Shown here: one piece after another, positions 4,687 to 45,875 of the stretch
How positions within the stretch are numbered: position 1 is the first letter of the stretch
Layout of the letters: every line of letters starts with the position of its first letter
Assembly: GCA_030019475.1 (NCBI GenBank)
Contig: JASEER010000018.1
Span: 1 to 47,842 of the forward strand
Reading direction: 5' to 3'
Origin: Thermoanaerobacterales bacterium
Lineage (GTDB): Bacteria; Bacillota; Desulfotomaculia; Desulfotomaculales; JASEER01
DNA: 47,842 nucleotides
Translations under genes and position numbers: made by a program
Notes under the pieces: generated by a model
Told to the model about the DNA's origin: nothing
Seen by the model: only the letters and a program-made list of their open reading frames with translations
Databases searched by the model: none

Positions 4687-5724
4687 ATGGCGGTCAAACT
4701 GGGCATCAACGGGTTCGGTCGCATCGGGCGTCTGGTTCTGCGCGCGGCGCTGGAGCGGGACGACCTGGAGGTCGTGGGGGTAAACCACAAGTCGCGGCGC
4801 ATCGCGGTCACCCCCGACTACGGCCGGGCCCTGGCCCACAGCCTTAAGTACGATTCGGTCCACGGACGCCTGAACCGGGACGTGGGCGGCGAGGGGATGA
4901 ACCTGCTCCTCGAGGGACGCAAGGTTCCGGTCTTCGCCGAGGCCGAGCCCGAGCGCCTGCCCTGGGGCGAACTCGGGGCGGACATCGTCATCGAGTCCAC
5001 CGGCCGCTTCCGCGAGGTGCGCGAGGCGGCGCGGCACCTGCAGTCGGGGGCGAAGAAGGTCGTCATCACGGCCCCGGGCAAGAACGACGACGTGACGGTC
5101 GTGATGGGCGTCAACGAGGGGATCTACGACCCCGCACGCCATAACGTGATCTCCAACGCCTCCTGCACCACGAACTGCCTCGCCCCGGTGGCCAAGGTCC
5201 TGCATGAGCGTTTCGGCATCGTCCGGGGCCTGATGTCCACGGTGCACGCCTACACCAACGGCCAGCAGATCCTGGATATGCCCTTCAAGGACCCGCGGCG
5301 CGGCCGGGCGGCCAACCTCTCGATCATCCCCACCACCACCGGCGCCGCGGCGGCTATCGGCAAGGTGCTGCCGGAACTGGCCGGGAAGCTGAACGGCTGC
5401 TCCCTGCGCGTCCCGGTGCCGGACGTTTCGTTGGTCGACCTCGTGCTGGAGGTGGAGCGCGAGACGAGCGTGGAAGAGGTCAACCAGGCCTTCAAGGAGG
5501 CCGCGGAAGGACCGCTGGCCGGCATCCTGGCCTATACCGACCTGCCCCTGGTCTCCTCCGACTACGTCGGCGACCCGCATTCGGCCATCGTGGACGGCCC
5601 GGCGACGATGGTCACCCAGGGGAGGATGGTCAAGGTGCTGGCCTGGTACGACAACGAGTGGGCCTACGCGGTGCGGGTGCTGGACTTGGCCGCTTATATC
5701 GCCTCCCGCGGCCTAGACCGTTGA
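4687..5724 (+). CDS. gap: Glyceraldehyde-3-phosphate dehydrogenase
   Basis: Catalyses the reversible oxidation/phosphorylation of glyceraldehyde-3-P. The 345-aa protein has the nucleotide-binding NGFGRIGR at residues 8-15 and the catalytic ASCTTNCLAP motif near residue 155; length is normal. At the end of strand beta-2 the usual Asp that binds the adenosine ribose is replaced: the sequence reads VNHKSRR (residues 32-38) instead of VND, which may shift preference towards NADP or relax it (inference). ATG preceded by AAGGAG. First gene of the glycolytic operon; no cggR repressor gene precedes it. Confidence 0.95.
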   Translation: MAVKLGINGFGRIGRLVLRAALERDDLEVVGVNHKSRRIAVTPDYGRALAHSLKYDSVHGRLNRDVGGEGMNLLLEGRKVPVFAEAEPERLPWGELGADIVIESTGRFREVREAARHLQSGAKKVVITAPGKNDDVTVVMGVNEGIYDPARHNVISNASCTTNCLAPVAKVLHERFGIVRGLMSTVHAYTNGQQILDMPFKDPRRGRAANLSIIPTTTGAAAAIGKVLPELAGKLNGCSLRVPVPDVSLVDLVLEVERETSVEEVNQAFKEAAEGPLAGILAYTDLPLVSSDYVGDPHSAIVDGPATMVTQGRMVKVLAWYDNEWAYAVRVLDLAAYIASRGLDR

Positions 5725-7830: not shown

Positions 7831-10639
<2,809 letters not shown>

Positions 10640-10658
10640 AATCACGAGCATTAAATCG

Positions 10659-10687
10659 TTGTCAGCGTGTCCCCAACATGCTATAAT
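10659..10687 (+). promoter_or_regulatory. secG promoter
   Basis: TTGTCA at 10659-10664 and TATAAT at 10682-10687 with a 17-bp spacer, about 30 bp before the secG start. A strong sigma-A type promoter. Confidence 0.75.
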
Positions 10688-10717
10688 TATCACCAAGTTG
10701 TGGAGGAGGGCCTTCCC

Positions 10718-10945
10718 ATGCTTAAAACAGTGGTAATGGTGATCGAGGTTCTGATCGCCTTGGCCTTGATTGCGGTTGTCCTTCTGCAATCGGGCAAGAG
10801 CGCCGGCCTGTCCGGGGCCATCGCCGGCGGCGCGGAAACCTTCTTCGGCAAGAAGAAGGGGCTGGACGAATGGTTTGCCAAAGTCACGGTGATCGTGGCC
10901 ATTATTTTCGGGCTACTCTCCCTGGTTCTCGTAGTCTGGAAATAG
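10718..10945 (+). CDS. secG: Preprotein translocase subunit SecG
   Basis: Small accessory subunit of the SecYEG channel. The 75-aa protein has two hydrophobic helices (about residues 3-22 and 52-72) joined by a Gly/Ala-rich loop ending in AETFFGKKKGLDEW, the usual SecG pattern. ATG at 10718 with GGAGGAGG 8 nt upstream; the longer in-frame start at 10667 lies upstream of the -10 box and is rejected. Its place after eno is common in Firmicutes. Confidence 0.92.
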   Translation: MLKTVVMVIEVLIALALIAVVLLQSGKSAGLSGAIAGGAETFFGKKKGLDEWFAKVTVIVAIIFGLLSLVLVVWK

Positions 10946-11060
10946 TGGCCTCCTAGTTTTGGACGCAGGCGGGAGGTGATGGTCAAGATACTCTGGCGCT
11001 GAACCGGTTCGCAATCTTTCTGGTTTCATCCTTTATAAGATCTTATGGAGGTGACCCTGT

Positions 11061-13085
11061 TTGTTCAGTCCGGAGACAATCCCTTATGTGGGGATCATCG
11101 CCGCCGGCGTCGGCATCCTGTTCGCCGCCTACCTGATCTCATGGGTTCTTAGTAAACCCGCCGGCAACCAGCGGATGATCGAGATCTCCGCCGCCGTGCA
11201 GGAAGGCGCCATGGCCTACCTCAGCCGGCAGTACAAGACCATCGCCATGGTCGGTATCCCGGTGGCGATCATCATTTGGCTTGGCCTGGGTTATGAGACC
11301 GCCCTCGGCTTCCTCGTCGGGGCAACCTTCTCCGGTCTCTGCGGCTACGTCGGCATGACCGTGTCGACCCGGGGCAACGCCCGTGTCGCTGAAGCCGCCA
11401 GGCAAGGTATGGGCCATGCCCTGCAGGTGGCCTTCAAGGGCGGCGCCGTCACCGGTATGATGTGCGTCAGTCTGGCCCTCCTCGGTGTGGCGGGCATTTA
11501 TGCCATCTTCCAGGACCCGGTCACCCTGGTCGGCCTTGGTTTCGGCGGTAGCCTGATCTCCGTGTTCGCCCGTCTAGGCGGCGGCATCTACACCAAGTCC
11601 GCCGACGTGGGCGCCGACCTCGTCGGTAAGGTCGAGGCCGGGATCCCTGAGGACGACCCGCGCAACCCGGCCGTTATCGCCGACAACGTCGGTGACAACG
11701 TCGGTGACTGCGCCGGTATGGCGGCCGACCTGTTCGAGACCTACGCCGTGACGGCCGTCGGCGCGATGTTGCTCGGCTTCCTGCTGTTCCCCGGCCAAAC
11801 CGCGTTTGTGGTCTACCCGATCATCCTCGGCGCGGCCGCGATCATCGCCTCCATTATCGGTACTTTCTTCGTCCGCATGGGCGGCGGCACCAACATCATG
11901 AGCGCTCTCTACAAGGGCATGTGGGCGGCGGCCATCCTGGCCCTGATCGCCTTCTACCCGATCACCACCGCGGTCCTCGGCACGGCGGTCTGGTTCTGGC
12001 CGGCCCTGGTCGGTATCGCGGTAACCATGATTATCGTTTACCTGACCGACTACTACACCTCCGCCGGCTTCCGGCCGGTTAAGTCGATCGCCTACGCCTC
12101 CCAGTCCGGTCACGCGACGAACATCATCTCCGGTCTCTCGATCGGCATGGAGGCCAGCGTCCTGCCCGCCCTGACCATCGTCGGCGGCATCCTGGCTTCT
12201 TATGTCATCGGTAACGGAGCGGTCGAGGGCGGCGGCCTTTACGGCGTCGCCGTGGCCTCGATGGCCATGCTCTCCATGACCGGCATCATCGTCGCCATCG
12301 ACTCCTACGGCCCGATCACCGACAACGCGGGCGGTATCGCCGAGATGGCCGAACTGCCGGCCGAGATCCGCAACATCACCGACCCGCTGGACGCCGTGGG
12401 CAACACCACCAAGGCCGTCACCAAGGGGTACGCCATCGGCTCCGCGGGCCTGGCGGCGATCGTGCTCTTCGCCGACTACACGCACCACCTGGCGGACTTT
12501 GTCCCGGCCGAGCAGCTCACCTTCTCCATCAACAACCCGTGGGTGCTGGCCGGCCTGTTCATCGGCGCGTCGCTGCCCTTCCTGTTCTCCTCGCTGGCGA
12601 TGGGCGCCGTGGGCCGCGCGGCCTTCGACGTCGTGAACGAGGTGCGGCGGCAGTTCCGTGAGATCAAGGGTATTATGGAAGGGACCGCGAAGCCCGAGTA
12701 CGGCCGTTGCGTGGATATCGTTACCAAGCGTGCGATCAAGGAAATGATGCTTCCGGGCATCATCCCCGTCGCGGCGCCGATCATCGTCGGCCTGGCTCTG
12801 GGCCGTGACGCCCTGGGCGGCCTGCTGATGGGCGTTATCGTCTCCGGTCTGTTCCTGGCTATCTTCCAGACCTCGGGCGGCGGCGCCTGGGACAACGGCA
12901 AGAAGTACATCGAAGAGGGCAACTACGGCGGCAAGGGCTCCGACGCCCACAAGGCCGCGGTCACCGGTGACACCGTCGGCGACCCGCTGAAGGACACCTC
13001 CGGCCCGGCCATCAACCCGATGATCAAGGTCGTGAACATCGTCGCCCTCCTGCTCGTCCCGCTGATCGCCAACATCGTGCGCTAA
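11061..13085 (+). CDS. hppA: Membrane proton-translocating pyrophosphatase
   Basis: Couples pyrophosphate hydrolysis to ion pumping across the cytoplasmic membrane. The 674-aa protein is built of about 16 hydrophobic helices and has the substrate loops [20 protein letters not shown] and [19 protein letters not shown], plus the C-terminal [16 protein letters not shown]. The discriminating motif reads GNTTKAV: Lys at the position where K+-dependent members have Ala, so this should be a K+-independent H+-PPase (established rule for the family, applied here). TTG start behind GGAGGTG. A terminator follows. Confidence 0.96.
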
Positions 13086-13101
13086 ACGCCGGAATCCAAC
13101 G

Positions 13102-13134
13102 GAACCCCTGCTCATACGGGCAGGGGTTCTTTTT
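13102..13134 (+). terminator. hppA terminator
   Basis: Perfect 10-bp stem GAACCCCTGC (13102-13111) / GCAGGGGTTC (13120-13129) followed by TTTTT. Confidence 0.85.
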
Positions 13135-13184
13135 GGCGCGCCCGGCATGGGCGGTGACCAGGTTGTGAAAGGCCTCGATTCTGC

Positions 13185-13213
13185 TTTACAAAATCCTGCA
13201 GCCTGATTATAAT
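13185..13213 (+). promoter_or_regulatory. Promoter of the DUF3842 leader
   Basis: TTTACA at 13185-13190 and TATAAT at 13208-13213 separated by 17 bp. It would start a leader RNA of about 150 nt before the coding region. Confidence 0.75.
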
Positions 13214-13219
13214 GAGGCT

Positions 13220-13330
13220 AACATCATAAGAAAGGGTGGCTCGGAGCCACCCCGGCGGTTAACGCTGTACCACGGATGGAAACCACGAGGAGTGTACTCT
13301 GTCGAAGCAGAGTCCCTTGTGGTTTTTTTT
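13220..13330 (+). promoter_or_regulatory. Structured leader with attenuator hairpin (copy A)
   Basis: Between the promoter and the DUF3842 gene. A first hairpin pairs 13234-13241 with 13245-13252 (GGGTGGCT/AGCCACCC), then a segment with CGGCGGTTAACGCTG. The terminator-like element pairs AACCACGAGG (13281-13290) with CCTTGTGGTT (13315-13324), encloses an inner hairpin (13296-13301/13308-13313) and ends in six T. The outer CCACGAGG stem is shared with four other leaders in the window (18307-18381, 32481-32540 minus, 32741-32790, 46505-46560). I cannot assign it to a known riboswitch class. Confidence 0.6.
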
Positions 13331-13373
13331 ACGGAACACCGGGCTCTCAATCTGCGATTCCAGGGGAGGAAGC

Positions 13374-13808
13374 ATGATACGTATCGCCGTAATCGACGGC
13401 CAGGGCGGTGGCATTGGTAGGCTTCTGGTGGAAAAGCTTTCGCATGTCCTGTGTTACAAAGACGCGGAAATCATTGCTCTGGGGACAAACGCCCTGGCCA
13501 CGGCGGCGATGGTCAAAGCCGGCGCCAGTGAAGGGGCCAGCGGTGAAAATGCGATCGTGTACAACGTTTCCCGGGTCGATATTATCGTCGGCACCATTTC
13601 CGTACTGGCGGCGCACGGCATGTCAGGCGAATTCACCCCGGCGATGGCCGAGGCGGTGGCGCGGAGCCCCGCGACAAAAGTCCTTTTGCACCTCAACCGA
13701 TCGGGTATCGAAGTGGTCGGTGTACCCGCCGAGCCGTTGCCGCACCTGGTGGATAAGCTTATAGAACGGGTTAGAGACCTCATAAAAAAGCAGGAAGAAT
13801 CCCGCTGA
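13374..13808 (+). CDS. DUF3842 family protein
   Basis: A 144-aa soluble protein of unknown function that I recognise as DUF3842-like. It begins with a Rossmann-like strand and glycine loop (IAVIDGQGGGIGR, residues 4-16) and further has GTNALATAAMVKAGA and a conserved NRSGIEVVGVP near the C-terminus; no catalytic motif can be named. ATG with GGGGAGG 4 nt upstream. It is expressed from its own promoter through a structured leader and is closed by a terminator, so it is a single-gene unit just upstream of the exported hydrogenase locus. A role in nucleotide or cofactor binding would fit the N-terminal loop but is only inference. Confidence 0.7.
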   Translation: MIRIAVIDGQGGGIGRLLVEKLSHVLCYKDAEIIALGTNALATAAMVKAGASEGASGENAIVYNVSRVDIIVGTISVLAAHGMSGEFTPAMAEAVARSPATKVLLHLNRSGIEVVGVPAEPLPHLVDKLIERVRDLIKKQEESR

Positions 13809-13810
13809 GT

Positions 13811-13858
13811 AACATCGCGAATTCCGGACACGAAGCCCGGCTTTCGCGATGTTTTATT
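13811..13858 (+). terminator. Terminator after the DUF3842 gene
   Basis: Perfect 11-bp stem AACATCGCGAA (13811-13821) / TTCGCGATGTT (13843-13853) followed by TATTT. The in-frame ATG at 13849 of the next reading frame lies inside this stem, which argues against using that ATG. Confidence 0.75.
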
Positions 13859-13887
13859 TCCAGGATCACGACTGGGGGATGACACTC

Positions 13888-14403
13888 GTGAAAAGCGCGG
13901 TCGTTATTGGGCTGGGGGACCCGCTCCTGGGTGACAGGGGCGCCGGCCCGTACGTTGTGGAAGCCCTGCTCCAGGAGAGACCGGGGTTGAACATTGAGCT
14001 GGCGGACATCGGTTTAAGGCTGACCGACCTGGAAATGCACCTTTACGGAAGGGATTACGGGATTCTGGTACAGGCTCTGGCGCGGGGGTATCCCGGCGGG
14101 CATGTTTCCCAGGTGGCGTATCGGGAATTGCAGCGTTCACGACAGAGCCCGCCATGCCTGCGGCCGGTTTTGGAGAGGCTTGGTCTGATGGAACGGTTTG
14201 GTGTTATGCCGCCGGAGGTGACGTTTGTCTTTATCGAGCCGCAAATGGTGTGCGAAGGTGTGGGAATTTCGAAGAACGTACGGTACGCCATTCGGAAAGC
14301 CACGCGTTTAATAAAGAAGGACCTTGAGCAGCGTGGGTATCTATGCGCGTCGCCGGTGGTCCCCCTGCGTTACCGGTTGGAGTTGCTTGAAATGACGGTC
14401 TAG
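13888..14403 (+). CDS. Hydrogenase-maturation-protease-like protein, degenerate active site
   Basis: 171 aa with the fold pattern of the HycI/HybD/HyaD endopeptidases, which clip the C-terminus of [NiFe] hydrogenase large subunits. The start VVIGLGDPLLGDRGAGP matches the family's VLGxGNxLLxDExxG, but the Glu nickel ligand is Arg; the second-strand Asp ligand (ADA in HybD) is VQA here, and the His of SPH appears as SPP. By eye all three metal ligands of HybD (Glu16, Asp62, His93) are lost. GTG at 13888 is preferred (GGGGGA 7 nt upstream; the family starts at this point); ATG 13879 is possible. There is no [NiFe] hydrogenase nearby; the next gene is an [FeFe] hydrogenase, which needs no such cleavage. 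Function unknown. Confidence 0.6.
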   Translation: MKSAVVIGLGDPLLGDRGAGPYVVEALLQERPGLNIELADIGLRLTDLEMHLYGRDYGILVQALARGYPGGHVSQVAYRELQRSRQSPPCLRPVLERLGLMERFGVMPPEVTFVFIEPQMVCEGVGISKNVRYAIRKATRLIKKDLEQRGYLCASPVVPLRYRLELLEMTV

Positions 14404-26021: not shown

Positions 26022-26076
26022 GGAACTTTCACCTATGCCACTCCCCGCCTCTCGACCGAAGGCGTGCGGGAGCGAT

Positions 26077-26343
26077 GACAGGCAGGCAGGTCTCCTGGCT
26101 TACGGTCATCGTCGCCTCCCGCCTTCCCGCCCGGCACTCAACCCAGAGACACAGGCGTCTTTGGTCAACCGTTACCGCTCGGTACATACAAGCTTCCGGT
26201 ATTCACCACAAGCTTCCTGTTTCCCCGGGTTGAGTGCTGGGCAGTGGCTTTCTGGGGGCGACTCCTCGCTCACAGTAGCGGGACTGCTCAGGATTTGCAC
26301 CTGATTCCCTCTTAGCCCCCGCCGGGGGCACCCGCCTGTCCGC
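26077..26343 (-). ncRNA. Cobalamin riboswitch upstream of metE
   Basis: On the minus strand the leader contains, in order, GACAGGCGGGTGCCCC, the conserved GGTGCAAATCCTGAGCAGTC and CCGCTACTGTGA region, GCCACTG, and the B12 box AGCCAGGAGACCTGCC (26100 down to 26085), closed by the GACAGGC/GCCTGTC stem. This is the canonical B12-element order. Between GCCACTG and the B12 box there is a long peripheral arm of about 120 nt closed by GCACTCAACCC/GGGTTGAGTGC, longer than in minimal examples. Confidence 0.93.
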
Positions 26344-26357
26344 TATTGCTTTGGATG

Positions 26358-34173: not shown

Positions 34174-35922
34174 ATGGGCAAGGTCGCGCTGGTCATCGAC
34201 CGGCAGACGGTTGAAGTGGACGCCGGGACCACCATTCTGGAGGCCGCGGCGCGGATAGGGATCAAGATTCCCACCCTCTGCTACCTCAAGGGGATCAACG
34301 AGGTGGGGGCCTGCCGCATTTGTGTGGTGGAGGTGGAAGGACGGGCGGAGTTTGTCACGTCCTGCAACACGCCGGTGGAAGAGGGCATGGTGGTACGGAC
34401 CAATACACCGGCGGTGCGCGCCGCGCGGCGGATGACGCTGGAGTTGATCCTCTCCGACCATCCCATGGAGTGTCTGACCTGTGTCCGGAACGGCAACTGC
34501 GAACTGCAGACGCTGGCGGCGCGGCTGAACGTGCGCGCGGTGCGGGTAAGCGGGGCGACCCACGCCGCCCTGCCGCCGGACGACTCCGGCGCCGGCATCG
34601 TCCGCGATCCGCGGAAGTGCGTTTTCTGCGGGCGGTGCATCAGCGTTTGCCGCGACGTCCAGGACGTGGGCGTCATCACGCTGCAGGGCTGCGGCTTCGA
34701 GGCCTTCATCGGACCGCCCGTGGGGCTGGCGCTTGCCGACACGCGATGCGTGCAGTGCGGGCAGTGCGCGCTGGTCTGTCCCACGGCGGCGATTACGGAA
34801 AAGGATGAAACGGATGCGGTCTGGGCGGCGCTGGCCGATCCGGAAAAGCACGTGGTGGTGCAGACGGCGCCGGCCACCCGCGTCACCATCGGCGACATGT
34901 TCGGTCTTCCGCCGGGGACGCCGGTGACGGGCAGGATGGTGGCCGCCCTGCGCCGGCTCGGTTTCGACGCCGTGTTCGATACCGACTTCACCGCCGACCT
35001 GACGATTATGGAGGAGGCCTCGGAACTCGTCAAGCGGCTGACCGAAGGGGGAGCGCTTCCCCAGTTGACCTCCTGCAGTCCGGGATGGATCAAGTACGCC
35101 GAGCATTTCCATCCCGAGATTCTGCCGCACATCTCTTCCTGCAAGTCGCCGCAGCAGATGTTCGGGGCGGTCGCCAAGACCTACTACGCCGAAAAGAAGG
35201 GCCTTGATCCGGCCAGCATTTTCGTGGTGTCGGTCATGCCCTGCACCGCGAAGAAGTTCGAGGCGGCCAGGCCGGAAATGGACGCGGCACAGCGTTACTG
35301 GAACAACCCTGAGGTGAGCCGTGACGTCGATGTCGTCCTCACATCACGGGAACTCGGCCGGATGATCCGGCGGGCGGGGATCGACTTCGCCAACCTGCCG
35401 GACGAGGAGTACGACGAACCACTGGGTGTCTCCACCGGGGCGGCGGCGATCTTCGGGGCCACCGGCGGCGTGATGGAGGCTGCTTTGCGCACGGCCTACG
35501 AGGTTGTTACCGGACGGGAACTACAGCAAATCAATTTTGAGGAGGTGCGTGGGCTGGAGGGCATCAAGGAGGCGGTGGTACCGCTGAAGGGGATCGATCT
35601 GAAGGTGATGGTGGCGCATGGGCTGGGCAACGCCCGCAAAGTGATGGAGAAGCTGAAGGCCGGCGAACTCAAGGACTATCACTTCATTGAAATTATGTGC
35701 TGTCCGGGCGGGTGCATCGGCGGCGGCGGCCAGCCGATCCCGACGGATACGGAAGTGAGGGCAAACCGTATCGCGGGGCTGTACCGGGTGGACGCGGCCA
35801 TGGAGTACCGCAAGTCGCACGAAAACCCGGCGCTGAAGAAGCTCTACGAGGAGTTCCTGGAAAAACCCCTGGGTCACCGGTCGCACGAGCTGCTTCACAC
35901 TCATTACACAGCGAGGTCGTAG
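34174..35922 (+). CDS. hydA: [FeFe] hydrogenase, multidomain (second copy in window)
   Basis: 582-aa cytoplasmic enzyme, no signal peptide. Order: [2Fe-2S] domain (Cys36, 47, 50, 64), His-ligated 4Fe-4S region (DHPMECLTCVRNGNCELQ), two 4Fe-4S motifs (CVFCGRCISVC, CVQCGQCALVCP), H-cluster domain with L1 TSCSPGW (299-305), L2 MPCTAKKFE (355-363), L3 MCCPGGCIGGGGQP (508-521). L1 has CS where most standard hydrogenases have CC, a change also found in multimeric, NAD-linked and bifurcating HydA. ATG with AAGGAGG 7 nt upstream. Preceded by a NuoF-FeS gene rather than a full flavin subunit. Uses a TAG stop. Confidence 0.95.
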   Translation: MGKVALVIDRQTVEVDAGTTILEAAARIGIKIPTLCYLKGINEVGACRICVVEVEGRAEFVTSCNTPVEEGMVVRTNTPAVRAARRMTLELILSDHPMECLTCVRNGNCELQTLAARLNVRAVRVSGATHAALPPDDSGAGIVRDPRKCVFCGRCISVCRDVQDVGVITLQGCGFEAFIGPPVGLALADTRCVQCGQCALVCPTAAITEKDETDAVWAALADPEKHVVVQTAPATRVTIGDMFGLPPGTPVTGRMVAALRRLGFDAVFDTDFTADLTIMEEASELVKRLTEGGALPQLTSCSPGWIKYAEHFHPEILPHISSCKSPQQMFGAVAKTYYAEKKGLDPASIFVVSVMPCTAKKFEAARPEMDAAQRYWNNPEVSRDVDVVLTSRELGRMIRRAGIDFANLPDEEYDEPLGVSTGAAAIFGATGGVMEAALRTAYEVVTGRELQQINFEEVRGLEGIKEAVVPLKGIDLKVMVAHGLGNARKVMEKLKAGELKDYHFIEIMCCPGGCIGGGGQPIPTDTEVRANRIAGLYRVDAAMEYRKSHENPALKKLYEEFLEKPLGHRSHELLHTHYTARS

Positions 35923-36292: not shown

Positions 36293-38035
36293 ATGAGCAC
36301 GTTCGCGCTGACCATCGACGGCCTGCGGGTCGAGGTGGAGCCGGGGACCACGATTCTTGAAGCGGCGGCGCGCGTGGGGATAAAGATTCCCACCCTGTGC
36401 TATCTGAAGGACATCGGTCACGACGTCGGCGCCTGCCGTGTCTGCGTCGTCGAGGTCGAAGGAGAAAAGGAGTTCAAGACCGCCTGTAACACGCCCGCGG
36501 CGGCGGGCATGGTGGTGCGCACCAACACCGCTGCGGTGCGCGAGACGCGCCGGGTCACCGTGGAACTGATTCTGGCGAATCACCCCATGGAGTGTCCGGC
36601 GTGCGTGAGGAACGGGTTGTGCGAGCTGCAGGACCTGGCGGCGACCTTCGGCATCCGCGAGGTGCGTTTCCCCCGCACGCGGCCCGTCTACCCGATCGAT
36701 GATTCCTCGGCGGCGATCATCCGTGACCCCAACAAGTGCATCCTCTGCCGCCGTTGCGTGACGGTGTGTCAGCAGGTGCAGGGCGTGAGCGCCATCGAGT
36801 TTGCGAAGGTGGACGGGGAGGCCGCGGTTGCCCCGGTACTCCGGGTGCCGCTGGCCGAAACCAACTGCGTGCAGTGCGGGCAGTGTATCCTGGTTTGCCC
36901 GGTGGGGGCCATCTACGAACGCGACGAGACCGGCAGGGTCTGGGCGGCGCTGGCCGATCCGCAGAAGCACGTGGTGGTGCAGACGGCGCCGGCGACGCAC
37001 GTCTCCATCGGCGAAATGTTCGGCCTGCCGGTGGGAACCGACATCACCGGGAAGATGGTGGCCGCCTTGCGGCGGCTGGGCTTCGACGCGGTCTTCGACA
37101 CCAACTTCACCGCCGACCTGACCATCATGGAGGAAGGTTCCGAGCTTCTCGAACGGATAAACAATGGCGGCGTCCTGCCGCAGTTTACGTCCTGCAGCCC
37201 CGGCTGGATCAAGTACATCGAACACTTCTATCCGGATCTTTTGGAGCATGTCTCCTCCTGCAAGTCGCCGCAGCAGATGCTGGGGCCGCTGGCGAAGACG
37301 TACTACGCGCAGAAGAGGGGCATCGATCCGAAGGACATCTTTGTGGTTTCCATTATGCCCTGCACGGCCAAGAAATTCGAAGCGCAGCGCCCGGAGATGA
37401 ACGCCTCCGGTTACCGTGACGTCGATGTCGTGCTGACCTCGCGCGAACTGGGACGGATGATCAGGGAGGCCGGCCTGGACTTCGCCAACCTGCCCGACGA
37501 GGACTACGACGAACCGATGGGCGTCGGCAGCGGCGCCGCCCAGATCTTCGGCGCCACGGGCGGCGTGATGGAGGCGGCGCTGCGCACCGCGTACGAGTTG
37601 GTTACGGGCAAGACGTTGGATCAGATTGACTTTGAAGAGGTCCGGGGCCTGAAGGGTATCAAGGAGGCGACGGTACCCGTCAACGGCCTGAACGTGAAGG
37701 TGTTAGTGTCACACGGCTTGAGCAACGCCCGCATCCTTATGGAGAAGGTCCGCGCCGGGGAACTGAAGGACTACCACTTTATCGAGATCATGTGCTGCCC
37801 GGGCGGGTGCATCGGCGGCGGCGGCCAGCCGATTCCGACCGGCACCCTTTCGCGCGAGCGCCGCATCGGCGGGACCTATGCCCGCGACAAGGCGTTGCAG
37901 TACCGCAAGTCGCATGAGAACCCCCAGGTCACGAAGCTCTACGAGGAGTACCTGGAAAAGCCCTTGGGCCATCGATCGCACGAACTGCTCCACACCACTT
38001 ACGTCGCCCGTGGGTGGCAACCGCGGGTGGAATAG
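36293..38035 (+). CDS. hydA: [FeFe] hydrogenase, multidomain (third copy in window)
   Basis: 580 aa, colinear with the hydA at 34174 and very similar through its whole length: [2Fe-2S] domain, His-ligated cluster region (NHPMECPACVRNGLCELQ), two 4Fe-4S motifs (CILCRRCVTVC, CVQCGQCILVCP), and L1 TSCSPGWIKY, L2 MPCTAKKFE, L3 MCCPGGCIGGGGQP. All H-cluster Cys are present, so it should be active. It lacks the small insertion after the L2 region that the other copy has (QRYWNNPEVS). ATG behind AAAGGAGGG. Last gene before a terminator. Arose by tandem duplication of a NuoF(FeS)-HydA cassette (inference). Confidence 0.95.
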   Translation: MSTFALTIDGLRVEVEPGTTILEAAARVGIKIPTLCYLKDIGHDVGACRVCVVEVEGEKEFKTACNTPAAAGMVVRTNTAAVRETRRVTVELILANHPMECPACVRNGLCELQDLAATFGIREVRFPRTRPVYPIDDSSAAIIRDPNKCILCRRCVTVCQQVQGVSAIEFAKVDGEAAVAPVLRVPLAETNCVQCGQCILVCPVGAIYERDETGRVWAALADPQKHVVVQTAPATHVSIGEMFGLPVGTDITGKMVAALRRLGFDAVFDTNFTADLTIMEEGSELLERINNGGVLPQFTSCSPGWIKYIEHFYPDLLEHVSSCKSPQQMLGPLAKTYYAQKRGIDPKDIFVVSIMPCTAKKFEAQRPEMNASGYRDVDVVLTSRELGRMIREAGLDFANLPDEDYDEPMGVGSGAAQIFGATGGVMEAALRTAYELVTGKTLDQIDFEEVRGLKGIKEATVPVNGLNVKVLVSHGLSNARILMEKVRAGELKDYHFIEIMCCPGGCIGGGGQPIPTGTLSRERRIGGTYARDKALQYRKSHENPQVTKLYEEYLEKPLGHRSHELLHTTYVARGWQPRVE

Positions 38036-38165: not shown

Positions 38166-38194
38166 TTGACAGGGTGCGCGGGAAACCGTATCAT
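38166..38194 (+). promoter_or_regulatory. Promoter of fluoride-switched dynamin operon
   Basis: TTGACA at 38166-38171 and TATCAT at 38189-38194 with 17-bp spacing, about 30 bp before the aptamer. Confidence 0.75.
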
Positions 38195-38220
38195 TATGGC
38201 AGAACGTGAAGGCGGGAACA

Positions 38221-38305
38221 TAAGGGGCGATGGGGTTCGCCCGAAACACCACGCAGTGGTTGATAACCCCTACCGGAAAGAACGGTTGTGCCGGTAGGGG
38301 TTTTT
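38221..38305 (+). ncRNA. Fluoride riboswitch (crcB motif) before dynamin-like gene
   Basis: The aptamer reads GGGGCGATGGGGTTCGCCC (from 38224), then GAAACACCACGCAGTGGTTGAT and AACCCCTACC, matching the crcB-motif order GGCGATGGxGTTCGCC...AA...hairpin...TGAT...xxCCTAC. Expression platform: AACCCCTACCGG (38265-38276) pairs perfectly with CCGGTAGGGGTT (38291-38302), followed by T5, so the terminator competes with the 3' end of the aptamer. Fluoride binding should stabilise the aptamer and let transcription continue. Confidence 0.9.
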
Positions 38306-38353
38306 ATTTTGCCGCCCCGGCCGGAATGTTTTACCGAAGGAGGGAATGCCACA

Positions 38354-40120
38354 ATGAGCAACGGCTACGCCGGGCATAAAGCGGCCTTGCAGGGGGCTCT
38401 GGACGAACTCATCGCCATCGTGGCGGAGAAAGGCAACCGCTTCGCCGGGGATCTGCTGAACGAGAGCGCCGCCCGCCTCCGGCAGGAAACGATCACCCTG
38501 GTCGTCCTCGGGGAGTTCAAGCGCGGCAAGTCCACCTTCATCAACGCCCTGCTCGGGGATAACGTCCTGCCCACGGCCATCGTCCCTCTGACGGCCATCC
38601 CGACCATTATCCGCCACGGGGCGCAAACCGGGGCGACTGTCTTTTACCTTGACGGACGGGAGGAAACGATTCCCGTACCGGACATCCCTTCGTTCGTCAC
38701 CGAACGCGGCAACCCGGGGAACAAGAAAGGGGTGCGGGAGGTGGTGCTGACCCATCCCTCCCCCTACCTGGCCCGCGGGGTGATCCTGGTCGACACGCCG
38801 GGGGTCGGTTCGGTCTACGAGCACAACACGGAGGCGGCCTACGGCTACCTGCCGCGGGCCGACGCCGGCGTTTTCATTGTCTCGGTGGACGCGCCGCTCG
38901 GGAAGACCGAACTCTCCTACCTGCATGATATCCGCCGGTACGTGGGCAAAATGGTTTTCATCCTGAACAAGGCCGACCTGGCGCAGGGGGCCGACCTGGA
39001 CGAGGCCTTCCGTTTCGTGCGCGACACCCTGCGCGAGCACCTCGAGGTGCCGGAGATCACCCTGCTCCCGATCTCGGCGAAGCAGGCCCTGGAGGGGAAG
39101 CTGACCGGTGATGAGGCCCTTTACCGCCAGAGCCGCATGCCGGAGCTGGAAGGCCTGCTGCGCGCGGTGGCCGAGAAGGAGAAGGCCTCCCTGATCCTTT
39201 CGGCGACGGCATCCCGGGCGCAGCGGGTCATCAACGAACTGACGCTGGGGCTTGAGCTGTGGCGGCGGGGAATGGACGAATCGCTGGAGAGCCTGCAGGA
39301 GAAGATGGACGCCTTCACCGCCGAGCTGGGGGTTTTGGAACAGGAGCGCGAGGATAGCATCTACCTGCTTTACCGGGAGGTCGAGAAACTGGGCGCCTGG
39401 GTGGGCGAGGAAATCGAAAACTTCAAGAAAAAGATCCAGCCGGAACTGACCGCGCGCCTCGAGGCATATTTGGCCGAGGTCTGGCCGCGGAGCTCGGTCA
39501 AAGAGGTGGCCGAAAAAGCCAAGGAGTTCACGAAAAAGATCGTCCTGGAGGCCCTGGAGGCGGAGCAAGAACAGCTCCGGGAGAAGATCAAGAACGACTT
39601 CGAAGCAGTGGCGAAACGCTTCTTTGCCCGCATTGAGGCTATCGTGGACCGGATGATGAGTGTCTCGGCCGAGATCTTCAACGTCCCGGTGCACAGGACG
39701 GAGTACAAGGAGTACATCCTCGGGGACCGCTACTTCTACTTCCACTTCTGGGAGCACCCGACCTTCATCCCGGCCTTCGAGGACCTGACGGTGGTCTCGA
39801 TGCTCCCGAAGGCGCTGCTCAGGAAAAAGGTGACGGATAAGGCGCGCGACAAGCTCGCCGAACTACTGGACCGCAACTGCGGCCGGGTGCGCGCCGACCT
39901 GGTGACCGGCCTCACCGAGCGGGTGCGGGAGGTGGCCGGGGAACTGCGCCTGCGTGCCGACGCCGTGGCCTTCGGCCTGAAGGGCGCTGTCGAGCGCGCG
40001 ATGGCCGACCGGCAGGCGGGGGCGGAGGAGAGGGCGAAGGCCCTCGTCAAGTGCGAGGCCGAACTCGAGCGCCTCGGACGCCTGCGGAAAACCGTCGAGG
40101 CCGTCCTGGGGGCCTTCTGA
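38354..40120 (+). CDS. Dynamin-like GTPase
   Basis: 588 aa. GTPase domain at the N-terminus with P-loop GEFKRGKST (residues 53-61), LTAIPTIIR, DTPGVGS (G3) and LNKADL (G4); the rest is long alpha-helical with charged coiled-coil segments and an amphipathic LPKALLRKKV stretch, as in bacterial dynamin-like proteins that bind or reshape membranes. ATG 38354 with AAGGAGGG upstream. First gene after a fluoride riboswitch, followed by DUF6062 and HEAT-repeat genes. Inference: membrane protection or repair under fluoride stress; no experimental link is visible from sequence. Confidence 0.85.
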   Translation: MSNGYAGHKAALQGALDELIAIVAEKGNRFAGDLLNESAARLRQETITLVVLGEFKRGKSTFINALLGDNVLPTAIVPLTAIPTIIRHGAQTGATVFYLDGREETIPVPDIPSFVTERGNPGNKKGVREVVLTHPSPYLARGVILVDTPGVGSVYEHNTEAAYGYLPRADAGVFIVSVDAPLGKTELSYLHDIRRYVGKMVFILNKADLAQGADLDEAFRFVRDTLREHLEVPEITLLPISAKQALEGKLTGDEALYRQSRMPELEGLLRAVAEKEKASLILSATASRAQRVINELTLGLELWRRGMDESLESLQEKMDAFTAELGVLEQEREDSIYLLYREVEKLGAWVGEEIENFKKKIQPELTARLEAYLAEVWPRSSVKEVAEKAKEFTKKIVLEALEAEQEQLREKIKNDFEAVAKRFFARIEAIVDRMMSVSAEIFNVPVHRTEYKEYILGDRYFYFHFWEHPTFIPAFEDLTVVSMLPKALLRKKVTDKARDKLAELLDRNCGRVRADLVTGLTERVREVAGELRLRADAVAFGLKGAVERAMADRQAGAEERAKALVKCEAELERLGRLRKTVEAVLGAF

Positions 40121-40141
40121 ACAACCGGATGGAGGTTGGCC

Positions 40142-40861
40142 GTGGATCCCGATATAGATCTCATTGACACGGAGATCATGGGGGCGATGAAGCTCCCCGG
40201 CTGTCCCGTGTGCACGCTGCTTGTCAGCATCGAGGACCGTTACCTGCGCTCGCTGCTCCGCGAGGGGATCTGCGACGCATACGTCAGGGCCCGTCTCCGT
40301 CGGGGGCGCGGCCTGTGTCACCGTCACGCCTGGGCGCTCCAGGAACTGGAGGCGCGGGAGTTTGGCGACGGTATGAGCAACGCCATCCTGGAGGAGGATA
40401 TTCTTCTGTCTCTCCTGGAAGAAGACTTGGAACAATCGGAGGGACGACCATCGCGGCGGCGGTGGCTGAGGCGGCGGGCAAAAGAAGAGGCCGGCCTCCC
40501 GGCCGGGGCACTTCGCCCGGGTGAGCCCTGCGCGGTCTGCGCGCACCTGGAGAGCTTTACGCACATCTACTGCAAACGCACGGCCGACCGGGTGAACGGC
40601 AGCTACCGCGACGCCTATGTTTCCTCAGACGGGCTGTGCCTGCCGCATTTTATCCGCACGCTGGACCTGATGCCCGGTGCCTCCGAGAGGGCGGCTGTTA
40701 TAGCGATGCAGAGGCGAAAGATAGAAGGCCTGGTCGGCGAACTGCGGGAGTACATTCGCAAACACGACTACCGCTTCCGCAATGAACCTAAGGGGCCGGA
40801 ACAGGACGCCTGGATCAGGGCGGTACGGCTGCTGGTCGGCAACCGTGAGGCTCATGGCTGA
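40142..40861 (+). CDS. DUF6062-like Cys-rich protein
   Basis: 239 aa of unknown function. Two repeated metal-site-like units: CPVC (GCPVCTLL) with GLCHRHAW, then CAVC (PCAVCAHLE) with GLCLPHFI; this CxxC...CxxH pattern would suit zinc or an iron-sulfur cluster. A basic RPSRRRWLRRRAKEE segment lies between the units. GTG at 40142 is preferred, 6 nt after GGAGG; TTG 40136 is too close. It overlaps the HEAT-repeat gene by 8 bp and follows the dynamin gene by 21 bp, so all three are one fluoride-controlled transcript. Confidence 0.75.
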   Translation: MDPDIDLIDTEIMGAMKLPGCPVCTLLVSIEDRYLRSLLREGICDAYVRARLRRGRGLCHRHAWALQELEAREFGDGMSNAILEEDILLSLLEEDLEQSEGRPSRRRWLRRRAKEEAGLPAGALRPGEPCAVCAHLESFTHIYCKRTADRVNGSYRDAYVSSDGLCLPHFIRTLDLMPGASERAAVIAMQRRKIEGLVGELREYIRKHDYRFRNEPKGPEQDAWIRAVRLLVGNREAHG

Positions 40862-41243
40862 AACCTATGCCCAAAAGCTGATCGCCGCGCTGGAGCACCC
40901 CGACCCTGCCGTCCGGCGCCGGGCGGCCTGGCTCCTGGGGCGGCGGCGCGAAACGGGGGCCGTGGAGGCCCTGCTGGCGGCCGTCGCGGCCAACGCGGGC
41001 GATCCCTATCTCCTGGAGACGGTCGTTGAGGCCCTGGGGCTTATCGGCGACCCTCGGGCCCTGGGTACGCTTACGGAATTACTGCGCTCTTCCTACCTGC
41101 CGGTACGCGTCCAGGCCGCCCGCGCCCTGGGCCGCCTCGGCGGCGCGGCGGCCCGGGAGGCGCTGCGCGAGGCCGCCCGGGCCGATCCCAGCGCGGTGGT
41201 GCGCGAGGCGGCCGCCGCGGCGCTGGGGGAAGCAGGATTATAA
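40854..41243 (+). CDS. HEAT-repeat (PBS-lyase-type) protein
   Basis: 129 aa made of about four HEAT repeats (units such as DPAVRRRAAWLLGRR, DPRALGTLTELLR, YLPVRVQAARALGRLG, DPSAVVREAAAAALGEAG). Such proteins are protein-binding scaffolds with no catalytic site. ATG overlaps the DUF6062 stop; a terminator follows at 41314, ending the dynamin operon. Role in the operon unknown; assembly factor for the neighbouring proteins is a guess. Confidence 0.8.
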   Translation: MAETYAQKLIAALEHPDPAVRRRAAWLLGRRRETGAVEALLAAVAANAGDPYLLETVVEALGLIGDPRALGTLTELLRSSYLPVRVQAARALGRLGGAAAREALREAARADPSAVVREAAAAALGEAGL

Positions 41244-41313: not shown

Positions 41314-41355
41314 AGAGAGAGCCTGAGTACAAATATGGCTCTCTCTTTTATTTTG
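41314..41355 (+). terminator. Terminator of dynamin operon
   Basis: Perfect 10-bp stem AGAGAGAGCC (41314-41323) / GGCTCTCTCT (41337-41346) followed by TTTATTTT. Confidence 0.8.
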
Positions 41356-44539: not shown

Positions 44540-44569
44540 TTGACGCCCGGTGGCCTGTCTGGATACAAT
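44540..44569 (+). promoter_or_regulatory. Promoter of fluoride-switched antiporter operon
   Basis: TTGACG (44540-44545) and TACAAT (44564-44569) with 18-bp spacing, directly before the aptamer. Confidence 0.7.
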
Positions 44570-44570
44570 A

Positions 44571-44647
44571 GTGCTCGGCGATGGAGCTCGCCTTAAACGC
44601 GACGACGCTAATGGCTCCTACCCAATCCATGGGTGGGGCCATTTTTT
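44571..44647 (+). ncRNA. Fluoride riboswitch (crcB motif) before antiporter
   Basis: GGCGATGGAGCTCGCC (44577-44592), TTAAACGCGACGACGC and TAATGGCTCCTACC match the crcB-motif consensus closely. The platform is ATGGCTCCTACCCA paired with TGGGTGGGGCCAT (44629-44641 region) followed by T6, overlapping the CTCCTAC part of the aptamer. Fluoride should prevent termination. Confidence 0.95.
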
Positions 44648-44684: not shown

Positions 44685-45875
44685 ATGAACGAGTGGTTGA
44701 CGGCCTCGGTCTGGATCGGCCTGGCCCTGGCGGCCGGCCTGGTCTCGGTGCGCCTGGGGATCTCCGTGGCACTTACCGAGATCATGTTCGGGGTTATCGG
44801 GGGCAACTTCCTGCACCTGGAGGTCGTGCCCTGGGTGCAGATGCTGGCCGGGTTCGGCAGCGTCTTCCTGACCTTCCTGGCCGGCGCGGAGGTCGACCCG
44901 GTCGTGCTGCGCGACAAATTCAAGGAGAGCGTGTCTATCGGCACGGCGTCCTTCCTCTTCCCGTTCGCCGGTGCCTTCGCCTACGCCTACTGGGTGGCCG
45001 GCTGGACGATGGACGCCTCGCTGATCGCCGGCATCGCCCTTTCCACGACTTCGGTGGCCGTGGTCTACGCGGTGATGGTCGAGACCGGCCTGAACGAAAC
45101 GGAACTGGGGAAGATCATCCTGGCGGCCTGCTTCGTGACCGACCTGGGGACCGTCCTGGCCCTCGGCGTCTTCTTCGCCAACTTCAACGTCTGGCTGGGG
45201 GTTTTCATCGGCGTGTCGGCCGTCGTCCTGGCGGCGACCCCGAAGCTGACCCGCTGGTTCACCGGGCGCTACGGGAACCGGGTCAGCCAGATGGAGGCGA
45301 AGTACTTTTTCTTCCTGCTGTTCCTGCTCGGCGGGCTGGCCCTGAAGGCCAACAGCGAGCCGGTCCTGCCGGCCTACCTGATCGGGCTGGCGGCGGCGGG
45401 GTTTTTCATGGAGCAGAAGGAGTTTCTCTCCCGGCTGCGGGCGATCGCCTTCGCCGTGCTCACGCCCTTCTACTTCCTGAAGGCCGGGCTCTTCGTCTCC
45501 CTGCCGGCGGTGGTCTCCGGCCTGCTTCTTATTACGATCCTCCTGGGGGTCAAAATGGTGACCAAGTTCTTCGGCGTCTGGCCGCTGACCCGGGCTTTCT
45601 GGTTTACGCCCCGCGACGGGATGTACACCACCCTGCTGATGTCCACCGGGTTAACGTTCGGGACGATTTCCTCATTGTTCGGCCTGTCGCACGGCATTAT
45701 TAACCAGAGCCAGTACACGGTCCTGGTCACGGTGGTCATCGGCAGCGCCGTGGTGCCGACGCTGATCGCCCAGGCCTTCTTCCGGCCGCAACCGGAGAGC
45801 GAAGAGGAGAACGGATCCCGAACGGTTACCCGGACTTCCGCGGAGCCGTTACAGAAAATTGCAGAAGGAGAGTAG
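44685..45875 (+). CDS. CPA2-type cation:proton antiporter (Kef-like)
   Basis: 396 aa, about 12 hydrophobic helices of the sodium/hydrogen exchanger (CPA2) fold, without the Kef TrkA-N domain; LTEIMFGVIGGNFL, FLAGAEVDP and STTSVAVVYAVM are family-typical segments, and ACFVTDLGTV contains the transport Asp region. The C-terminal 35 residues are polar. ATG with GGGAGGGG upstream. First gene after a fluoride riboswitch; antiporters are known members of fluoride regulons, either to remove fluoride by co-transport or to restore pH. Followed by uspA after 4 bp. Confidence 0.9.
   Translation: MNEWLTASVWIGLALAAGLVSVRLGISVALTEIMFGVIGGNFLHLEVVPWVQMLAGFGSVFLTFLAGAEVDPVVLRDKFKESVSIGTASFLFPFAGAFAYAYWVAGWTMDASLIAGIALSTTSVAVVYAVMVETGLNETELGKIILAACFVTDLGTVLALGVFFANFNVWLGVFIGVSAVVLAATPKLTRWFTGRYGNRVSQMEAKYFFFLLFLLGGLALKANSEPVLPAYLIGLAAAGFFMEQKEFLSRLRAIAFAVLTPFYFLKAGLFVSLPAVVSGLLLITILLGVKMVTKFFGVWPLTRAFWFTPRDGMYTTLLMSTGLTFGTISSLFGLSHGIINQSQYTVLVTVVIGSAVVPTLIAQAFFRPQPESEEENGSRTVTRTSAEPLQKIAEGE

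Follow-up and report, generated by a model that had tools for sequence, protein, structure and literature searches.

A fluoride riboswitch predicted to control a dynamin-like GTPase operon and recurring with this dynamin family in several bacterial phyla

Fluoride riboswitches led to the discovery of the fluoride resistance proteins CrcB/Fluc and CLC-F. With F− (and Mg2+) bound, the aptamer derepresses transcription, the pseudoknot being stabilized and the terminator not formed. The genes reported in the main text of Weinberg et al. (2010; PMC2864571) and in a 2024 review (PMC11139923) comprise mutS, transporters, enolase, pyrophosphatase, antiporters and others, and no dynamin is named in either. 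In the searchable open literature, we found no report of a link between fluoride riboswitches and dynamins, nor any on DUF6062, although an earlier listing in Baker et al. (2012) or in supplements is not excluded. The type of operon described here shares with known RF01734 (crcB motif) operons the same aptamer, pseudoknot and terminator-overlap design, as well as islands in which antiporter, enolase, UspA and MutS-like genes are found. By contrast, its controlled gene is a dynamin (accompanied by DUF6062 and HEAT-repeat genes), which is absent from the published gene lists examined.

To our knowledge, the natural stimuli of bacterial dynamins remain mostly unclear. BDLP1 of Nostoc (2j68/2j69) and IniA of Mycobacterium (6j72) resemble the protein studied here in having one GTPase head and a neck/trunk helical bundle. 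However, identity in the structural alignment is only 16–19%, and our dynamin belongs to a distinct family that has a conserved C-terminal NCGR motif and fluoride riboswitch control. DynA of B. subtilis, a bacterial dynamin that provides membrane stress protection and protects against phage (PMC8844932), is two-headed, whereas the present protein is one-headed, and the two-headed relatives examined do not carry the riboswitch.

The window, i.e., the whole stretch of DNA that was analyzed, is a 48 kb contig from a Bacillota genome of 2.28 Mb that is 95.7% complete (Table 1). The promoter ahead of the dynamin gene (TTGACA-17-TATCAT) has 11 of 12 matches and is the sole match in the region, against 0.3 expected, and the aptamer starts 22 nt downstream of it. 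The covariance model is matched over its full length (1–64) with an E-value of 1.7e-9, and the score of 45.4 bits exceeds the gathering score of 34. Together with the pairing of P1 and the pseudoknot, and with a platform coupled to the aptamer before an ORF, this score qualifies the element, on sequence grounds, as a member of RF01734. The terminator consists of a 12-bp stem followed by TTTATTTT, and the pseudoknot 3′ strand AACCCC is included in its 5′ arm (AACCCCUACCGG), so that pseudoknot and terminator would be mutually exclusive, as in an ON switch. The expression platform is thus predicted to have a fluoride-ON layout, for which there are no fluoride-binding data. The 103-nt fold has a z-score of −3.1 and is equaled by no shuffle. 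The dynamin and DUF6062 genes are separated by a gap of 21 bp, the DUF6062 and HEAT genes overlap by 8 bp, and we infer that all three are co-transcribed. The initial annotation had described the promoter, aptamer and terminator as clear and had named the genes as a dynamin-like GTPase, a DUF6062 protein and a HEAT-repeat protein; all three elements were recovered with scores and coordinates, and the Pfam matches agree with the gene identities.

Table 1. Features of the dynamin operon and its fluoride island, in window coordinates.
Feature	Position	Strand	Support or detail
Sigma-70-type promoter	38166..38194	+	-35 TTGACA 38166-38171, -10 TATCAT 38189-38194
Fluoride riboswitch aptamer RF01734	38217..38279	+	45.4 bits
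Aptamer P1	38225-38229/38238-38242	+	sequence coordinates
Aptamer pseudoknot	38232-38237/38265-38270	+	sequence coordinates
Aptamer P3	38249-38252/38256-38259	+	sequence coordinates
Intrinsic terminator (expression platform)	38265..38310	+	arms 38265-38276/38291-38302, U-tract to 38310
Shine-Dalgarno AAGGAGG of dynamin gene	38337..38343	+	sequence
Single-headed bacterial dynamin-like GTPase, 588 aa	38354..40120	+	Dynamin_N PF00350, E 1.4e-24
DUF6062 protein	40142..40861	+	PF19538, E 2.3e-16, 60.4 vs 27 bits
HEAT-repeat protein, 129 aa	40854..41243	+	PF13646, E 4.6e-30
Terminator-like hairpin with T-run, end of unit	41314..41354	+	read directly from sequence
Second fluoride riboswitch	44568..44627	+	50.3 bits; overlapping terminator about 44610-44647
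CPA2 Na+/H+ exchanger-family transporter	44685..45875	+	fluoride island shared with dynamin operon

A second fluoride riboswitch, absent from the initial annotation, ends 57 bp before the CPA2 exchanger gene, and these two are the only fluoride riboswitches in the host genome. The window also encodes an enolase and a membrane H+-pyrophosphatase (9365-10639 and 11061-13085), both without a fluoride riboswitch; in other genomes, these are fluoride-response genes. Just upstream of the dynamin operon lie tandem paralogous [FeFe]-hydrogenase/NuoG-like proteins (34174-35922 and 36293-38035), of which the second was checked against Pfam and the first was assigned by visible similarity. A cobalamin riboswitch (122 bits) is present at 26068-26350 on the minus strand.

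The strongest evidence that the riboswitch belongs to the dynamin gene comes from its recurrence. When 60 relatives from the window's order were searched with the dynamin protein alone, nearly all full-length orthologs (31–59% identity) were found to have a same-strand upstream RF01734 match. One apparent exception (G059) reflects a contig break, in which a riboswitch-HEAT unit ends one contig and the dynamin begins another; we infer that the two join. Since a single-sequence search of species-genome contigs gave no match, a profile of 15 orthologs (A1) was used instead against 85,000 species genomes, and the best 80 loci were taken on protein similarity only. They come from Bacillota, many Deltaproteobacteria/Desulfobacterota, Nitrospirota, Actinomycetota, and bins labeled Bacteroidetes, KSB1 and Atribacteria; most are from metagenome bins, and the phylum labels need caution. 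Once 1 duplicate had been dropped, along with 7 loci truncated at the end of a contig, 72 of these best 80 were evaluable, and 68 of them have an RF01734-type element upstream on the same strand. In 64, this element scores at least 18 bits with a covariance model built in this analysis (57 of the 64 lie within 450 nt of the gene, and the others head a short operon), and 4 further loci pass Rfam's own gathering score. Only L103, L122, L125 and L132 have no riboswitch. It is worth noting that our covariance model was built partly on dynamin-adjacent riboswitches; the loci were picked by protein, and Rfam's independent model agrees. Low scores of L065, L069, L071 and L121 with our home-made model (R1) proved to be an artifact of crude alignment, with Rfam scores of 34–51 bits.

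The regulatory architecture recurs as well. Ahead of the gene, 50 of the 56 loci tested have an attenuator terminator that either overlaps the aptamer or comes after it, compared with 1.2 expected from mononucleotide shuffles. P1 and the pseudoknot covary among 31 relatives, where 99% of cells are paired, with 21 double changes, against 0 of 500 shuffles. Chance or a one-off coincidence was considered and is ruled out by the conservation counts. The proposal of the initial annotation that a fluoride riboswitch controls a dynamin operon is therefore supported by the aptamer, by the attenuator and, most strongly, by the 68 of 72 conserved loci. Earlier reports of such neighbors in numbers would have counted against it; none appear in the searchable papers, although the arrangement is common in genomes.

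The association does not extend to the other dynamins used as controls. Two-headed and other dynamins of the window's order have the riboswitch in 0 of 12 cases, and the tandem single-headed sister dynamins in none. In a FastTree phylogeny, a supported branch separates the riboswitch-bearing rows from the sister group, and the riboswitch side holds 114 rows (94 positive, 13 unknown and 7 negative); long branches and a chosen root limit this tree. Across 399 Bacillota genomes, a fluoride riboswitch is present in 39/44 with the dynamin vs. 117/355 without it (Fisher p 7e-13, uncorrected for phylogeny), and 34 of 50 dynamin-profile matches in these genomes, counting the distant ones, have a riboswitch on the same strand no more than 2.6 kb upstream.

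The protein itself retains the GTPase motifs G1 (GEFKRGKST), G3 (DTPG) and G4 (NKAD), which are invariant or near-invariant across 36 sequences, indicating an intact GTPase site. The AlphaFold model (pLDDT 81) consists of a GTPase domain and a long helical bundle (helices 262–442 and 486–587), with a low-confidence, aromatic-rich tip at about 443–485 that is only mildly hydrophobic and is at most a putative membrane-binding paddle; no transmembrane segment was found in the dynamin. IniA and BDLP were the best matches in structural comparison (BDLP TM 0.67–0.69), and a profile search matched BDLP with an E-value of 4e-47. In its Dynamin_N domain with the motifs and its single head followed by a helical neck/trunk, the protein conforms to the BDLP/IniA type, and not to the two-headed DynA type, as the 588 aa chain has one Dynamin_N domain. 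Near the C-terminal helices, the family has a highly conserved (D/E)RNCGR-R motif at residues 507–513 (window 39872-39895).

The partner genes are frequent but not universal, HEAT being found in about 9 and DUF6062 in about 6 of the 80 loci. DUF6062 has two conserved CxxC...CxxH clusters, and these make zinc binding likely, in the absence of binding data. Its model is all-helical, and an attempt to derive a function from the fold failed, with no PDB match (best E 2.8). In 17 of 399 Bacillota genomes, the gene is found close to the dynamin, and in several genomes, some without a nearby dynamin, it is directly behind its own fluoride riboswitch, which suggests that DUF6062 is a fluoride-response family even apart from the dynamin. 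Examples are at L092 7558-8351, L113 5788-6538 and L039 17927-18318, and others occur in G316, G305 and G430. In several phyla, the dynamin has HEAT proteins as neighbors, which often carry a zinc ribbon at the N-terminus, and in one genome the two are fused into a 737 aa protein (L059 3533-5746; L040 3304-5517). This fusion places HEAT at the dynamin N-terminus, downstream of a fluoride riboswitch. Genes already known from fluoride islands, namely CPA2, UspA, enolase and a MutS-like pair, also co-occur in dynamin islands.

CrcB/Fluc and CLC-F exporters are, like the dynamin, products of fluoride-riboswitch operons, but they are unrelated to it in sequence, and neither family was found in the host genome. 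A six-frame HMM search, which matched control genomes, found no CrcB/Fluc or CLC in the operon or elsewhere in the host, i.e., no recognized fluoride exporter despite two fluoride riboswitches. More broadly, both CrcB and CLC are absent from 16/46 dynamin genomes vs. 5/34 riboswitch-bearing controls (p 0.07). This is only suggestive and does not establish that exporter absence is cleanly enriched among dynamin genomes; draft genomes may also miss genes, which limits these counts.

Overall, we consider it very probable, as far as sequence can tell, that this conserved dynamin module is regulated in response to fluoride. The best explanation of the whole, which we favor with moderate confidence, is a fluoride-inducible operon whose dynamin maintains or remodels the fluoride-stressed membrane; membrane maintenance as the effector function is an evenly balanced inference, with GTPase activity and lipid binding both inferred. 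A rise in cytosolic F− (with Mg2+) would stabilize the pseudoknot, the terminator would fail and the operon would be transcribed. The dynamin would then bind GTP and, through its helical bundle, assemble at the inner membrane. This assembly might keep the membrane intact under fluoride/HF stress or remodel it, while a scaffolding or regulatory part may fall to HEAT and to DUF6062, a putative zinc protein, and the co-regulated CPA2 antiporter would handle the acid load. A membrane repair or sealing role would fit the modeled fold (BDLP/IniA/mitofusin-like), and there are no functional data. Because HF crosses intact lipid, it is not obvious how a dynamin lowers fluoride toxicity. The lack of a transmembrane segment and the weak hydrophobicity of the tip likewise count against this explanation, as do the four family loci without a riboswitch and the patchy occurrence of HEAT and DUF6062. 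A bolder possibility, which we regard as doubtful, is that fluoride tolerance can be achieved independently of known exporters by a system made up of dynamin, HEAT and DUF6062. In anaerobes without CrcB/CLC, this system would be a main line of defense, with fluoride-induced dynamin assemblies acting by inner-membrane remodeling/sealing or by organizing an unrecognized exporter.

Other explanations have to be weighed against a membrane-maintaining effector. The cell might compensate for an inhibited target: MgFx or AlFx (with Mg2+ or trace Al3+) would trap the GDP-bound GTPase, more of the GTPase would be made, and the dynamin would be a housekeeping protein rather than a protective effector. 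The intact GTPase site is compatible with this, as is the example of enolase and pyrophosphatase, fluoride-inhibited enzymes under riboswitch control (PMC11139923), enolase being found in dynamin islands. However, the other dynamins of the window's order have no fluoride riboswitch, and at a stringent cut-off only 44 of the 399 Bacillota genomes carry the dynamin, which is therefore not a general housekeeping GTPase, leaving this explanation improbable. Alternatively, the dynamin, with HEAT and DUF6062, might cluster or regulate the CPA2 antiporter or another acid- or fluoride-removing transporter and not remodel lipid. CPA2/NHE genes occur in 18 + 8 and MFS genes in 16 of the 80 loci, often in the same operon, and no CrcB or CLC was found in the host. 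Yet the dynamin is often the sole gene behind the riboswitch, and about half of the loci have no close co-directional gene downstream, and we consider this explanation improbable as well.

It is also conceivable that the dynamin serves anti-phage or general envelope defense and sits in a fluoride island by coincidence, given partial PADLOC matches to LeoA/LeoBC (E about 1e-19) and the phage protection by B. subtilis DynA (PMC8844932). A full-length match to a Leo/DynA-type model with partner genes was not obtained, the LeoA match being expected from the common dynamin domain. Moreover, the riboswitch and attenuator lie directly upstream across phyla, and defense genes are not recurrent neighbors, which makes this very unlikely. 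That the aptamer-like RNA binds another ligand in the window's lineage, as low local-model scores of some divergent copies and the lack of ligand-binding data might allow, is scarcely credible given the conserved RF01734 core and pseudoknot and the presence nearby of genes characteristic of fluoride islands (antiporter, enolase, UspA and MutS-like).

The riboswitch-dynamin pairing, found before almost all close relatives of this gene in several phyla, suggests that bacterial fluoride defense has a widespread arm that has not been described. It ties a dynamin family to a fluoride switch and so provides a bacterial dynamin with a physiological trigger that is specific and defined by a ligand, gives DUF6062 a first functional lead, and makes a membrane-remodeling component in fluoride stress a testable claim, with relevance to engineering microbes for degrading fluorinated chemicals.

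Several further features were observed at these loci. Members of an AAA/NACHT-like ATPase family are encoded either beside the dynamin or immediately downstream of a fluoride riboswitch (L099 6718-7544, L101 2826-3632 and L109 815-1600). In L039, a dihydroxy-acid dehydratase (IlvD) gene is behind a fluoride riboswitch (12132-13952), and another fluoride riboswitch precedes a related gene pair, one member of which has a MutS_V domain (8793-12047). In L065, an M-box magnesium riboswitch (135 bits; 4758-4935) is close to the fluoride-switched dynamin locus.
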